Assembly: GCA_902515095.1 (NCBI GenBank)
Contig: CABXTC010000003.1
Coordinates: 62,001-126,000 of the forward strand
Direction: 5' to 3'
Length of the DNA: 64,000 nucleotides
From: an uncultured Pelagibacteraceae bacterium
Lineage (GTDB): Bacteria > Pseudomonadota > Alphaproteobacteria > Pelagibacterales > Pelagibacteraceae
Within the stretch, counting starts at the first letter, position 1, and each line of letters begins with the position of its first letter. The notes under the pieces are model-generated. The model made no database searches. It was given only the letters and a program-made list of their open reading frames with translations, and had not been told where the DNA came from. Of this stretch, positions 25,626 through 31,705 are shown piece after piece. Made by a program: the position numbers and the translations under genes.

Positions 25626-28103
25626 ATGAATAAAAATAAAATCACAGCAGTACTAGGTCCAACCAACACAGGTAAAACACATTTAGCAATAGAAACAATG
25701 CTTTCATTTGAATCTGGAATGATAGGTTTTCCACTAAGACTTTTGGCGCGAGAGGTATATGACAAAGTTATAAAAAAAACCAAACATGATGAAGTTGCTC
25801 TTATAACTGGAGAAGAAAAAATTATACCAGCAAATGCAAAATATTTTTTATGTACAGTAGAGTCTATGCCAATAGACAAAGATTTAGAATTTGTTGGAAT
25901 TGATGAAATTCAAATGTGTGCAGACCATGAACGAGGCCACATTTTTACAGATAGATTACTTAATATGAGGGGTAGTAAGCTTACAATGTTTATGGGTTCA
26001 AATACGATAAAAGGTATTATCTCAAAATTAAATGATGATATAGAGTTTATTAATAGGAAAAGATTATCTAAACTTACTTACGCTGGCCATAAAAAAATCT
26101 CGCGAATTAATAGAAAAACAGCAATAATTGCTTTTTCAACAGAGGAAGTTTACGCCATAGCTGAATTATTACGAAGACAAAAAGGTGGAGCAGCGATTGT
26201 AATGGGGTCATTGAGTCCAAAAACAAGAAATGCTCAAGTTAATTTATATCAATCAGGAGATGTCGATTTTTTAGTAGCAACTGATGCCATAGGTATGGGA
26301 ATTAATATGGACCTTGACCATGTATATTTTTCAAATTTAAAAAAATTTGATGGAAAAAAATTAAGAAAACTTAATCTATCTGAAATAGGTCAAATTGCAG
26401 GCAGGGCAGGCAGATACCTAAATGATGGTAATTTTGGTATTACTGGTGATTGTAAAGATATAAAAGCTGAAGAAGTTGATTTATTAGAAAATCATAAGTT
26501 TGAAGAAATAAGAACTTTGTTTTGGAGAAATTCTAACTTGAATTTCAACAACCCACCGGCCTTATTAAAATCACTTGAGGAAAAACCTGATAAAGATTGG
26601 TTAAGGAAAATTCATGAATGTGAAGATGAAAAGGTTCTCAAATATTTTATTAAAAAATTGGATTTAAACAGTGCGATTAAAGTAAAAGAGACTTTAATTT
26701 TATTATGGGAATGCTGTCAAATTCCTGATTTTGTTAAAAAAACTTATGGAAATCATATTGACGTTGTTGAAAAAGTATTCAATTTTCTAAATACTAGTAA
26801 AGGAAAAATCACTAATGATTTTATGCATTTACAGCTTATGAAGCTTAATAAATTGGAAGGAAATGTAGATTCTTTAGCAAATAGAATTGCAAATGTAAGA
26901 ACTTGGTCTTATGTTTCGAATAAAAATAATTGGGTAGAAAATCAAAATTATTGGGTAGAAAAAACAAAATTTTTAGAGGATAAACTTTCAGATAGACTTC
27001 ATGAAGAAATTACAAAAACTTTCATTGATAAAAGAGCAAGCGTGCTTGCAAGAGGTTTAAAACAGGACATGAAATTTGATACTAAAATTCTAGAAAATAA
27101 TGATGTTATGATTGATGATCAATTCATTGGTAAAATAAATGGTCTAAAATTGGATTTAGATCTTAAGAAAGGCGCTCTTGAAACTGATATTAAATCTCTT
27201 AAAAAAGCTGCAAGAAAAACTATTGGGCCAGAGCTTGAAAAAAGAATTCAGATAATAATTGATACAGGTTTAATTGATCTAAAAAATGATTTTAAAATTT
27301 ATTGGAATAATTCATCAATATGTAAGTTGTCACCTGGAAAAGATTACTTAAACCCCAACATTGAATTATTAGTTGATGACATGCTTGAACAAAATCAAAG
27401 AAATAAGTTGGTAAATTTTTTAGAAAAATGGTTAAAAAATAAAATTTCAACTATTTTAAAAAGTCTTTTTGATCTAAAAGATCTTAAAGATAAAAATTCT
27501 TCGATTAAAGCATTAGCATATCAACTTTATGAAAATAATGGGGTTATAAAAAGAGATCAAGTTTCAGATTATATTAAAAAATTAGATCAAAGTGATAGAA
27601 AAATTTTACGAGATTTAGGTGTAAAATTTGGAAGATACCATATTTTCTTATACAAGCTTATCAAGCCAGAGCCTGTTTCTCTTAGAACATTACTTTGGAA
27701 GAATCATCATCAAAAATTCTTCAATTTACAACCACCAACTTTTGGTCTTAATTTTATTAATGATGATAAAATAAAGAATAAAAATTTTATGCTACTTTGT
27801 GGTTTTGAAAAATTTAATAATTTTTACGTAAGAATAGATATTTTAGAGAGGTTATTTGTACAAATAATTAATTCAAATTCTGGAAATCTTAAAGAAATTA
27901 AAATGATGCCAGAAATGTTAAATTTATTAGGGTGCAATAAAGATAATTTTAAACATTTACTTAAAATAATGAATTATAAAATTATAGAAAAAAATAGTGA
28001 ATTATTTTTTAAATATATGCCAAAAAAGAAAATTAAAAGAGAAAACAGAGGAAATATTAAAGAAAATCCTTTTGGGGTCTTAAAAAATTTAAATTTAAAT
28101 TAA
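25626..28103 (+). CDS. SUV3-like DEXH-box RNA helicase
   Basis: An 825-residue superfamily 2 helicase of the type found in alphaproteobacteria and related to the mitochondrial SUV3 helicase of the RNA degradosome. Walker A is GPTNTGKT near residue 11, the DEXH box is DEIQ near residue 93, and motifs V/VI are ATDAIGMGIN and IGQIAGRAGRY. The long C-terminal part is poorly conserved and Lys-rich. Probably unwinds RNA during decay, in the cytoplasm. First gene of a run with the TerB-like protein, ferredoxin and CarD. The 179 bases before it hold no gene I can support. Confidence 0.88.
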   Translation: MNKNKITAVLGPTNTGKTHLAIETMLSFESGMIGFPLRLLAREVYDKVIKKTKHDEVALITGEEKIIPANAKYFLCTVESMPIDKDLEFVGIDEIQMCADHERGHIFTDRLLNMRGSKLTMFMGSNTIKGIISKLNDDIEFINRKRLSKLTYAGHKKISRINRKTAIIAFSTEEVYAIAELLRRQKGGAAIVMGSLSPKTRNAQVNLYQSGDVDFLVATDAIGMGINMDLDHVYFSNLKKFDGKKLRKLNLSEIGQIAGRAGRYLNDGNFGITGDCKDIKAEEVDLLENHKFEEIRTLFWRNSNLNFNNPPALLKSLEEKPDKDWLRKIHECEDEKVLKYFIKKLDLNSAIKVKETLILLWECCQIPDFVKKTYGNHIDVVEKVFNFLNTSKGKITNDFMHLQLMKLNKLEGNVDSLANRIANVRTWSYVSNKNNWVENQNYWVEKTKFLEDKLSDRLHEEITKTFIDKRASVLARGLKQDMKFDTKILENNDVMIDDQFIGKINGLKLDLDLKKGALETDIKSLKKAARKTIGPELEKRIQIIIDTGLIDLKNDFKIYWNNSSICKLSPGKDYLNPNIELLVDDMLEQNQRNKLVNFLEKWLKNKISTILKSLFDLKDLKDKNSSIKALAYQLYENNGVIKRDQVSDYIKKLDQSDRKILRDLGVKFGRYHIFLYKLIKPEPVSLRTLLWKNHHQKFFNLQPPTFGLNFINDDKIKNKNFMLLCGFEKFNNFYVRIDILERLFVQIINSNSGNLKEIKMMPEMLNLLGCNKDNFKHLLKIMNYKIIEKNSELFFKYMPKKKIKRENRGNIKENPFGVLKNLNLN

Positions 28104-28517: not shown

Positions 28518-28840
28518 CTTACATTGTAAATGATAATTGTATCAAATGTAAATTAATGGATTGTGTTGATGTGTGCCCTGTTGATTGCTTCTACGAAGGT
28601 AAAAATATGCTTGTAATTAAACCGGATGAGTGTATAGATTGTGGCGTTTGCGAGCCAGAGTGTCCTGTTGATGCTATTAAAGCTGATACTGAGCCAGGTA
28701 GCGAAAAATGGTTAGAAATCAATAAACAATATTCTGAAATCTGGCCAAATATTAGTGAAAAAAAAGATCCACCTGCGGATCACGAAAAATATAAAAATGA
28801 GCAAAATAAGTTTGAAAAATATTTTAAAGAAAACCTTTAA
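28514..28840 (+). CDS. fdxA: 7Fe ferredoxin (FdxA type)
   Basis: A 108-residue electron carrier. The N-terminal cysteine set [18 protein letters not shown] is the 3Fe-4S/4Fe-4S pattern with an extra Cys, and the second cluster is [16 protein letters not shown]; the C-terminal extension is typical of the 7Fe FdxA family. Partner reactions are unknown. It overlaps TerB upstream, and the carD start most likely lies inside its last 44 bases. FdxA just before CarD is a recurring alphaproteobacterial arrangement. Confidence 0.93.
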
Positions 28841-29624
28841 AAAAAAAACTAAAACGAAGAAAATTAAGAAAGCTCCTAAAATAAAAAAGGCTAAAGTTAA
28901 AAAAATAAAAAAACCTACAAAGATATCGAAGAAAATTTCCAAAAAAGTAGAAACTCAAACAGAAAATTTAAGGATTCCTAAAACTAATGAATTAAAACCT
29001 GAAATAAAAAAGGTAAAAAAACAAAGTACTGAAAAAAGAGAATTCAAAATTAAAGATTATGTTGTTTATCCCAAACATGGAGTTGGCCAAATTACAGAAT
29101 TTAAAAAAATAAATATTGGTGGAATAGATGTTGAAACTTACATTATTAAATTTGAAAAAGATAAGGCGAATGGAATGGTGCCAGTCAATAAACAGTCCCA
29201 TCTACGACCACTTTCTACAATTAACCAGGTCAATAAAAGTATCTCTATTTTAAAAAGTAAACCAAAAATTAAAAGGTCTATGTGGAGTAGAAGAGCTCAA
29301 GAATATGAGGCAAAAATCTCATCAGGTAAAATTTATGAGCTAGCTGAGGTTGTTAGAGATTTAAATAAAGGTGATGACATCATGATTGATCAATCTTATA
29401 GTGAAAGACAGCTTTTTGAAAAAGCATACGAAAGAATAATCTCTGAATTCCAAATTGTATTGAATTTATCTAAAGAGGATACTCAAAAAAAATTTGATAA
29501 AGCTTTAAAGAGGAATCTTAACAAAGAAACTGTTGAAGAATCCAAGACTACTAAAACATCAAGTAATAATGATTTACCTGTTGAAGAACCAATTTCTGAT
29601 GTTGAAGAACAAATCGAGGATTAA
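28797..29624 (+). CDS. carD: CarD-family transcription factor with a lysine-rich N-terminal tail
   Basis: CarD/CdnL proteins bind RNA polymerase and stabilise the open promoter complex. The RNAP-interaction domain begins [20 protein letters not shown] and the helical DNA-contacting half has [15 protein letters not shown]. In front is an extension of about 85 residues, nearly half of it lysine, reminiscent of histone H1 tails; the C-terminus is acidic. I take ATG 28797 (MSKISLKN), inside fdxA; a GTG at 28755 would add 14 residues and neither has a clear Shine-Dalgarno sequence. An intrinsic terminator follows the stop. Confidence 0.9.
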
Positions 29625-29629
29625 AAAAA

Positions 29630-29667
29630 AACGCCTCTCACACTAAAAGTTATGAGAAGCGTTTTTT
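29630..29667. terminator. bidirectional intrinsic terminator of carD and the basic peptide gene
   Basis: The arms AACGCCTCTCA and TGAGAAGCGTT pair with a single mismatch around a 12-base loop. A run of T follows on the plus strand (29662-29667) and a run of A precedes it (29623-29631), which gives a T-tract on the minus strand. It therefore ends transcripts from carD on one side and from the small basic peptide gene on the other. Confidence 0.88.
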
Positions 29668-29685: not shown

Positions 29686-29763
29686 TTATCTTCTTCTTCT
29701 TTTTTTAGCTTTTTTCTTAGCTTTTTTCTTAGCCTTCTTTGCTTTTTTTCTTCTCTTAGGCAT
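29686..29763 (-). CDS. extremely basic 25-residue peptide
   Basis: ATG-started frame beginning MPKRRKKAKKAKKK and ending in four arginines: 13 Lys, 6 Arg and 4 Ala out of 25. Three things support it as a gene: an AAGGGAG Shine-Dalgarno sequence eight bases upstream, a promoter with a perfect TTGACA and 17-base spacer, and a terminator just downstream. The size and charge recall tiny ribosomal proteins (archaeal/eukaryotic eL41, bacterial Thx) or histone-like tails, so RNA or DNA binding is likely. No family assignment is made. Confidence 0.8.
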   Translation of the reverse strand: MPKRRKKAKKAKKKAKKKAKKRRRR

Positions 29764-29784
29764 CTTTAGCTCCCTTTTTAGTTA

Positions 29785-29805
29785 AACGAATCAAATTGAT
29801 TCGTT
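29785..29805. promoter_or_regulatory. 21-base perfect palindrome in the leader of the basic peptide gene
   Basis: The arms AACGAATCAA and TTGATTCGTT are exact reverse complements around a single central base. It lies between the predicted -10 box and the Shine-Dalgarno sequence of the 25-residue peptide gene, so it can act as an operator for a dimeric regulator or as an RNA hairpin in the leader. There is no T-run after it, so termination is unlikely. Confidence 0.6.
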
Positions 29806-29814
29806 ATTATCTTA

Positions 29815-29843
29815 TTTTTATTTTTTTATGTACGTTATGTCAA
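29815..29843 (-). promoter_or_regulatory. predicted sigma70 promoter of the basic peptide gene
   Basis: On the minus strand a perfect TTGACA (29843-29838) is followed after 17 bases by TAAAAA (29820-29815). The start codon lies about 50 bases downstream, leaving room for the palindrome and a strong Shine-Dalgarno sequence. It is one of the clearest -35 boxes in the window. Confidence 0.65.
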
Positions 29844-29962: not shown

Positions 29963-31705
29963 TTAATAAAGTTTTTCTAAATCTTCTTTATATTTTTCTA
30001 AAATTTTTTTTCTTTTTAATTTTAATGTTGGTGTTAACATTCCATTATCAATTGTAAATTCTTCATTAATTAATTTAAATCTTTTAACTTTTTCAACTAA
30101 AGATAAAGTTTTGTTAAGATTTTCTAAATAAAATTCAATTTCTTTTCTGTTTTCAATACTTTCAGTAACAATAATAGCAACTAAATAAGTTTTTTTATCT
30201 CCATAAATAAAACTTTGTTTAATTTTTTCATTTAAACATAATAAATTTTCAATTTTTGAGGGTGAAATGTTATCGCCGCCAAGACTCACTATTATTTCTT
30301 TCTTTCTATCAGTTATTTTTAAATTTCCATCTTCTGTGATTTCACCTATGTCTCCAGTATGCAGCCAGCCATTCTTGATGATATCATCTGTTTCTTTTTT
30401 CATATTCCAGTAGCCAAGCATAACATTCTCACCTTTTACTAAAATTTCACCATCATCAGCGATTTTCACCTCATTGGTTTTAAAAGGTGGACCAACAGTC
30501 TCTATCTTGATTTTACCAGGTAAATTGCAGCTTACCACAGGTGAAGTCTCCGTTAAGCCATATCCTTGTAAAGTCGGCAGACCTATAGAATTCAAAAATT
30601 CACCTATTTTTTGATCTAAAGCTCCACCACCAGAAACAAAGGCTTTTAATTTCCCCCCAAATTGATTTTTGATTTTTTTTCTTACTAAAATTTCACAAAA
30701 AAAATTAATGATTTTTTCTTTTAAACTTAATTCTTGTTTATTTAAATTTTTGGTGCCTAACAAAATTGTATTTTCTATCAATTTTTTTTTTAAACCTCTT
30801 TGTTTTGAAAAATTAAGAAAAATTTTACTATATAAATTTTGATAAAATCTAGGAACAGCTGTCATAATAGTAGGTTGTGCAACAGTCATGCTTGGTAATA
30901 ATTTTTCTAAACTTTCAGCATAGTAAATTTTTGCTCCAAGCAATATTTGAACGTATTGAACTGTATGTTCATATGAATGAGATAACGGCAACCAAGTTAA
31001 GAAAACTGGTTTTTCATTTTCAACCAATGATTTTAAAATCGTTTGTGCACCCTCACAATTTGATAAAATACCCCCATGACTTAACATTACACCCTTGGGA
31101 TTTCCAGTGGTCCCTGATGTATAAATAATACAAGCTAAATCATTTCTTCTTAAATTATTATTATAAAATTTTATACTTTCATTTAAAGTTTTAACACTCC
31201 ATTGCGCCTTAGAAAAAATATTTTCAAAAAATTCTATTTTTTTATCAAATTCATCGATTGAAATTACAATTGTATTTTCTTTAATATGATTTTTAATTTT
31301 TTCAAATTGGAAAGAATTAGAGACTATACATACTTTTGGTTCGCAATTATTGATTATGTATTCATAATCACTTTCGGAATAAGTTGTAAAAAGTGGAACA
31401 GTCACCCCACCTGCATTCATTATTGATATATCAGATATTAACCATTCAGGTCGATTTTCAGATAATAAAATACACCTATCGCCTTTAGAAATAATTTTCA
31501 CTAAATAGTTTGATAATATTTTTATTTTTGTATTAATATTTTCCCATGAATAAGTAAATGGTCCAGAATTTGTGTCTGGTGAATCTTTATTTTTAAGTGA
31601 AACTAGAAAAGTCTCTTCATGAGTCTTCGTGCCTGCAGAAGGAAACTTTTCATCATATTTCCTAAAAAAAAGCTCAACTAAACTATTTATTTCTTTCAAT
31701 TCCAT
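29963..31705 (-). CDS. AMP-dependent long-chain acyl-CoA synthetase
   Basis: Activates a fatty acid to acyl-CoA through an acyl-adenylate. The 580 residues hold the P-loop-like IIYTSGTTGNPKGVMLSHG near residue 192, the adenylate-binding GYGLTETSPVVSCN, and GWLHTGDIGEI with DRKKEIIVSLGGDNISP near the C-terminus. It resembles FadD15-type enzymes; the exact chain length is unknown. The start codon lies only four bases after the CCA of tRNA-Leu on the same strand, so its mRNA is probably released from a tRNA-mRNA precursor with almost no leader. Confidence 0.92.
   Translation of the reverse strand: MELKEINSLVELFFRKYDEKFPSAGTKTHEETFLVSLKNKDSPDTNSGPFTYSWENINTKIKILSNYLVKIISKGDRCILLSENRPEWLISDISIMNAGGVTVPLFTTYSESDYEYIINNCEPKVCIVSNSFQFEKIKNHIKENTIVISIDEFDKKIEFFENIFSKAQWSVKTLNESIKFYNNNLRRNDLACIIYTSGTTGNPKGVMLSHGGILSNCEGAQTILKSLVENEKPVFLTWLPLSHSYEHTVQYVQILLGAKIYYAESLEKLLPSMTVAQPTIMTAVPRFYQNLYSKIFLNFSKQRGLKKKLIENTILLGTKNLNKQELSLKEKIINFFCEILVRKKIKNQFGGKLKAFVSGGGALDQKIGEFLNSIGLPTLQGYGLTETSPVVSCNLPGKIKIETVGPPFKTNEVKIADDGEILVKGENVMLGYWNMKKETDDIIKNGWLHTGDIGEITEDGNLKITDRKKEIIVSLGGDNISPSKIENLLCLNEKIKQSFIYGDKKTYLVAIIVTESIENRKEIEFYLENLNKTLSLVEKVKRFKLINEEFTIDNGMLTPTLKLKRKKILEKYKEDLEKLY

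Follow-up and report, generated by a model that had tools for sequence, protein, structure and literature searches.

An RF01814 RNA as the probable trans-acting repressor of a histone-like micro-protein in SAR11 bacteria

We find that a small gene beside carD in SAR11 bacteria encodes a polycationic peptide, and that the loop of an RNA of the RF01814 ('rhtB') family, encoded elsewhere in the genome, is complementary to its ribosome binding site. It is probable that RF01814 is a dedicated trans-encoded sRNA that represses translation of this histone-H1-like peptide independently of Hfq. In the proposed mechanism, a strong promoter would drive a short mRNA that carries a hairpin at its 5' end, followed by a strong Shine-Dalgarno (SD) sequence and a Lys/Arg/Ala frame of 20-36 codons. 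RF01814 would be transcribed from its unlinked locus as a single hairpin of roughly 50 nt, whose loop, AUCUUUAGCUCCC, together with the adjacent C of the inner stem, would pair with GGGAGCUAAAGAUG of the mRNA. The duplex would cover the SD and the start codon and thereby block ribosome binding, with no need of Hfq. This antisense RNA is the regulator with the strongest evidence. It lies outside the window, which is the 64,000-nucleotide stretch of the Pelagibacteraceae genome that was analysed, and it was missed by an earlier note made from the letters of the window.

The peptide gene occupies 29686..29763 on the minus strand of the window, a 25-codon frame encoding MPKRRKKAKKAKKKAKKKAKKRRRR with stop TAA, and is assigned from its orthologues and from selection. 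It sits between a gene for an AMP-binding, acyl-CoA-synthetase-like protein (29963..31705, minus strand; PF00501), which is upstream, and carD, encoding a CarD/CdnL-type protein (28755..29624, plus strand; PF02559 and PF21095), whose start may be internal. As the earlier note had claimed, 19 of the 25 residues are basic (Lys or Arg). This basic fraction, 0.76, compares with 0.375 for the runner-up among the window's 231 frames that start with ATG and encode 20-60 aa. Among 60 simulated windows, in which each base was drawn by a Markov model from the preceding three, none held a frame of at least 22 aa with at least 76% basic residues, the maximum being 0.43.

The frame is conserved. A DNA search of 61 genomes of the genus gave 48 loci, and 47 of these carry the peptide frame beside carD; one locus (G004) is cut by a contig end, and the other 13 genomes had no usable locus. 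Protein search alone recovered the peptide in 8 of the 61 relatives because the query is so short, so that searches with DNA and with the leader had to be added. Pooled pS was 0.151 and pN 0.029 (pN/pS 0.19) in 791 pairs of equal length with differences at no more than 20% of sites; these pairs are not independent of one another. The peptide frame is under purifying selection. The earlier note had named the lack of a conserved frame in close relatives, or equal rates of synonymous and non-synonymous change, as grounds for abandoning the gene. Neither is the case, and the 25-codon frame is therefore confirmed as a real, conserved small gene beside carD. Orthologues start with M[PA]x and consist otherwise of stretches of K, R and A interspersed with a few T and P. 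They range from 20 to 36 aa in 143 genomes, the variation in length arising largely through Lys/Ala repeats. CarD adjoins the gene at all 143 loci and the AMP-binding gene at 136. The best explanation, and part of the reading that we hold probable as a whole, is a core small-protein gene of the SAR11 genus.

Shorter and longer versions of the peptide occur in the sister genera g5-g9. The copies read have 21-24 aa in g8 and g9, 31 in g6 and 36 in a g5 genome (G085). Leader-model scores are weak for the g5-g7 copies (E 0.0004 to 0.14), and these were accepted by leader, frame and place. The longest, in a g7 genome (G099), is 50 aa with APAKK/KPAKK repeats (AGGAGAGCAAAG); its contig holds only the AMP-binding side, and since it failed the mRNA pattern it stands outside the counts. 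Within the genus itself, a strongly diverged copy in G182 (loci L195 and L288) encodes 20 aa, MAAKRKAAKKSKKKAKKRSR, and the sRNA of the same genome has diverged outside the core. A tblastn search of a phage collection with the peptide, a low-complexity query, gave no match.

The neighbourhood has features of its own. In the window and in the six relatives whose CarD frames were read, the CarD domain is preceded by a long N-terminal extension rich in Lys, next to a gene for a Lys-rich micro-protein. A Suv3-like DExQ helicase is encoded at 25626-28103 of the window, and three genes separate it from the peptide gene. Suv3-like proteins are an RNA helicase family known from mitochondria.

The expression signals described earlier from the window are all present in the sequence: the SD AAGGGAG (29770..29776, minus strand), a sigma-70-like promoter TTGACA-17-TAAAAA (29815..29843, minus strand), the 21-base palindrome AACGAATCAAATTGATTCGTT between them and a downstream terminator. 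All SD bases but the first A are invariant in 44 aligned leaders. A generic promoter scan, which gave the TTGACA an 18-nt spacer, reported 3 promoter-like sites where shuffled sequence is expected to yield 2.4. On one sequence alone, the promoter is not above chance; what makes it convincing is its recurrence upstream of the gene in relatives. The terminator, a hairpin with a T-run at 29628..29667 common to the peptide gene and the convergent carD, went unreported by the generic scan because its loop exceeds the scan's loop limit. Hairpin and T-run are visible in the listed relatives.

The palindrome (29785..29805, minus strand) lies close to where the mRNA is predicted to begin, and autoregulation through it had been proposed in the earlier note. 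Among 135 leaders that fit one pattern, its arms are ACGAATC/GATTCGT in 79, GCGAATC/GATTCGT in 40, ACGAATC/GATTTGT in 15 and GCGAATC/GATTCGC in 1. In 55 of the 135 leaders (40 + 15), the arms do not match perfectly as DNA, yet in the mRNA strand they pair through G-U. The loop measures 4, 5 or 6 nt. Because the arms are so often kept by G-U pairs and the loop varies in length, the palindrome looks like an mRNA 5' hairpin rather than a DNA operator. The operator reading is disfavoured on the same grounds. Thus, of the earlier interpretation, the real and conserved small gene beside carD stands, and autoregulation through the palindrome is not supported. Eight leaders fell outside the pattern: three belong to sister genera and have stems that are longer and different, four are from the genus (G034, G066, G106 and G262) and have lost one or more stem pairs, and one is cut short. 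The genus leader alignment showed no covariation beyond shuffles, 162 of 500 of which reached the observed score. The segment CGAATC is near-invariant, which structure alone does not explain and which leaves some room for a protein site. Placed near the expected transcription start, the hairpin may stabilise the 5' end.

An Rfam scan of the peptide region gave a weak RF01814 match on the opposite strand, at 25.6 bits against a cut-off of 55. The strong overlap in this match is CAUCUUUAGCUCCC, the complement of the SD-to-start region. The ribosome binding site sequence led to the genome's own RF01814 gene, since its closest other copy lies there. This gene is on another contig (G000:C2:26517-26599, minus strand) and, with a covariance-model score of 81.3 bits against the curated cut-off of 55, belongs to the family. 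RF01814 is found in 50 of the 61 genus genomes. Across the order it occurs in 144 of 247 genomes, all in this genus, and the leader model R1 in 165 of the 247; the sRNA search used the whole-family model, and many of the genomes have completeness gaps. All seven single-contig genomes of the genus in that sample carry both sRNA and leader. Fifteen of some 159 genomes of the genus have no RF01814 match, among them G117, which is 97% complete, and those read (for example G117, G009 and G206) keep the canonical ribosome binding site. Assembly gaps or recent loss are possible explanations.

In the predicted fold of the genome's own sRNA (z -3.5), a long stem leads to a short inner stem topped by a loop of 13 nt, which is the antisense sequence; the predicted apical loop of the family is the same 13 nt. 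Both stem halves are present in 118 of 120 loci listed from genome contigs. Nineteen of 144 outer stems, of eight pairs each, contain one U-G pair when read on the Rfam strand, and none contains a mismatch; read on the other strand, these U-G pairs would become A-C mismatches. Since only the Rfam strand tolerates these wobbles as pairs, a sense-strand reading of the element as an 8-codon frame, MAKKDYLK, was rejected. An extended -10-like element, TGNTANNNT, stands at a near-fixed distance before the stem in the 50 loci listed, and because promoter-like elements precede the stem, the sRNA probably starts at the first paired base. In most of these 50 loci, TAATGCA is found about 17 nt before the -10-like element, an unusual -35 region for this sRNA. 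The combination AATGCA-15-TGNTANNNT is not enriched in the window (2 matches against 3.6 expected). After the stem, the copies fall into two classes, 53 of 144 with a T-rich run and 91 of 144 without one. The 3' end is uncertain in most copies, as only those 53 have a U-run directly after the stem.

Two further sets of matches were examined. Among 80 matches listed, 79 are SAR11 by title; the remaining one (L326) is a contig titled Cytophagales, with 28% GC and an rhtB element of SAR11 type, which is probably misbinned. None of 120 viral loci listed as holding the 14-mer has an sRNA-like element, and a basic frame among the viral loci (L495) bears no resemblance to the peptide family.

The proposed target, GGGAGCUAAAGAUG, comprises SD, spacer and start codon at 29761..29774 (minus strand) and is complementary to the RF01814 loop. 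Both partners were read in 127 genomes, and in all 127 of them positions -11 to +3 pair, by Watson-Crick or G-U pairs. These genomes are a fetched subset of the listed sRNA and mRNA pairs in which low-scoring ones were preferred, parsed with patterns that required core parts (GGGAG; AGCTC[CT]CGG). All 144 fetched sRNA loci parsed. For 17 of these 144 genomes, no mRNA sequence was read (no usable locus, or a contig-end cut), and for 37 of 164 mRNA genomes no sRNA sequence (18 of this genus, 19 of others). Position -12 pairs in 0 of 127 and +4 in 68 of 127; the +4 mismatch in the other 59, as in MP-type peptides, means that the duplex beyond the core varies.

Sequence change within the core is rare and keeps the pairing. 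In 118 of the 127 pairs the core is identical. Six mRNAs have A at -1, and the matching sRNA base is found in all six and in none of the others. In a tree built from CarD and the AMP-binding protein these six form one clade (the most recent common ancestor has exactly six tips, support 0.80), so the matching double change counts as one co-evolutionary event rather than six. The other core changes are C-to-U in the sRNA (G077 and G182) and A-to-G in the mRNA (G220), and all keep G-U pairs. The spacer of the genus mRNAs is CTAAAG in 137 of 145, CTAAAA in 6, CTGAAG in 1 and unparsed in 1, presumably G005, which lies at a contig edge. Genera lacking an RF01814 match show seven forms among 19 genomes, three of them within g8; these are raw counts that ignore kinship. 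A cognate sRNA in the sister genera was sought with the strict pattern GGGAGN{1,5}AAGATGGCT, which occurs at one place in 14 of 20 genomes and at none in 6; by this pattern, no second copy of the RBS-like sequence is present in the 20.

The exact match is also unique. Each of six genomes has exactly two copies of the exact 14-mer, one in the peptide gene and one in the sRNA gene. Near-matches with one or two mismatches do occur in the six, and the two 1-mismatch sites in G000 have no start codon. With the peptide mRNA the sRNA is predicted to form a duplex of -40.1 kcal/mol, whereas the most favourable of 59 other ORF starts in the window reaches -29.8; cofolding gains -12 to -22 kcal/mol in 7 genomes. 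The two loci are unlinked, on different contigs in G000 and at about 410 kb and 1,298 kb in G090, where the RF01814 hit (1297616-1297698) probably overlaps the rhtB region published in 2009. A distant locus with conserved complementarity to a ribosome binding site, paired in 127 of 127 genomes, is one mark of a trans-encoded base-pairing sRNA; the other, a short transcript that alters expression of its target, is predicted here. Pairing of the RF01814 loop with the peptide mRNA is well supported.

The same double-stranded 14-mer stands at both loci, and a sequence-specific DNA-binding protein might recognise the duplex GGGAGCTAAAGATG at each, the RNA complementarity being incidental; a co-evolving DNA motif would then change in both places, as the clade of six does. 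We regard this as highly improbable. At the peptide locus the 14-mer coincides precisely with SD and AUG, and at the sRNA locus it falls in the apical loop of a predicted hairpin that is conserved. Each of the three changes confined to one partner leaves a G-U pair, and the wobbles in the stem make valid pairs solely in RNA of one strand. RF01814 might also be a mere terminator or the leader of a neighbouring gene, its loop a match left by a duplicated start region. The family was first named for rhtB, and in the parts covered, Meyer 2009 described a bulged hairpin of lesser support whose loop is conserved and which might be regulatory or act as a terminator, saw poly-U after about half the copies and raised a conserved termination signal (PMC2704228). 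The U-run after the stem in 53 of 144 copies here agrees with this. However, a relic under no selection would not have preserved all 14 pairing positions in every one of 127 genomes amid variable flanks, and an extended -10-like element precedes the stem at a near-fixed distance in the 50 loci listed. We find this explanation very unlikely and favour an antisense RNA.

Because the pairing covers SD and AUG, translational repression is the predicted result. Transcription of the sRNA, its size, and repression rather than another outcome on pairing are likewise predictions. Hfq (PF17209) was found in none of 10 SAR11 genomes (G000, G090 and eight others), the same search being positive in 5 of 14 controls; with Hfq absent, long perfect pairing without a chaperone is to be expected. 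In their usual form, type I toxin-antitoxin systems have a toxin ORF and an antisense RNA that overlap or are adjacent. An antisense RNA over the start of a small ORF recalls such a pair, with the polycation as toxin and the sRNA as antitoxin. Basic proteins can be toxic, and the parts of PMC3469542 covered report that HctA expression is lethal in E. coli. Here, however, the loci are unlinked, with single copies in the closed genomes looked at; the peptide gene is core rather than patchy, and the peptide is not hydrophobic. We therefore consider a toxin-antitoxin pair improbable, and an sRNA dedicated to a cellular gene remains our preferred reading.

As for the peptide, its charge and its H1-like longer forms suggest the binding function: most likely it resembles a histone H1 tail and, as a polycation, binds nucleic acid or some other polyanion. 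Nucleic-acid or ribosome binding, as the earlier note proposed, is plausible. It might instead be a ribosomal or ribosome-associated micro-protein with feedback at the leader hairpin. eL41 and bTHX are likewise tiny and highly basic, and the size, charge, strong expression signals and a 5' hairpin kept across the genus would all fit. We judge this unlikely. The solved PDB chains, which include eL41 and Thx, gave no match at E up to 10, and three peptide forms (25, 36 and 50 aa) matched no Pfam or NCBIfam family at E up to 1, although a short, low-complexity query of 25 aa makes this a weak test. The length, 20-36 aa and 50 in G099, also varies, unlike a fixed ribosomal site. For the histone-like peptide that we prefer, one tentative role, which we think somewhat doubtful, is that the sRNA switch gates nucleoid packaging, or the condensation of polyphosphate or RNA, with growth state, and that this switch arose independently of the IhtA-HctA system of Chlamydia.

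Taken together, our results propose a function and one unique target for RF01814, a family without a function since 2009. They also propose a regulator for a core small protein that had been overlooked in one of the sea's most abundant cell groups. If the sRNA does act as such a growth-state switch, this would be a minimal sRNA, little more than one loop on one stem, and the pair would be among the most numerous sRNA-mRNA pairs in the ocean, in SAR11 cells with few regulators and no Hfq. The use of antisense RNA by a streamlined bacterium lacking Hfq becomes directly testable.

A search of the open-licence PMC literature brought up neither a report of the peptide nor a target for rhtB, and the parts covered of PMC5069720 and PMC13198564 make no mention of either. 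A 2019 survey notes at least three sORFs and one sRNA in SAR11 strain HIMB5 in the part covered, with details in its supplement, where an earlier listing of the peptide or the sRNA is possible (PMC6429828). Relative to the rhtB of Meyer 2009, the family is the same, and the target, the strand test and the co-variation with the target are new here. The variable length of the SAR11 peptide sets it apart from eL41 and bTHX. Like HctA, HctB and AlgP, it is rich in Lys, Ala and Pro and varies in repeat length, and by eye the 50-aa form of G099 is similar to them. Unlike those families, it is only 20-36 aa in the relatives counted and has no profile match. HctA is the larger protein.

The closest known system is that of Chlamydia, where, according to the parts of PMC4355289 and PMC3469542 covered, the trans-encoded sRNA IhtA pairs across the hctA AUG and represses it independently of Hfq. 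In both cases a trans-encoded stem-loop RNA pairs, or is predicted to pair, over the AUG of the mRNA for a small basic histone-like protein without Hfq. As described there, IhtA measures 107 nt, folds into three stem-loops and requires a duplex of 7 nt around the AUG, whereas RF01814 has one predicted hairpin and 14 nt complementary to SD and AUG; repression was shown for IhtA and hctA and is predicted for RF01814 and the peptide. The likeness is presumably one of convergence, and it suggests that RNAs which cover the start codon of a histone-like protein and silence it may have evolved more than once.
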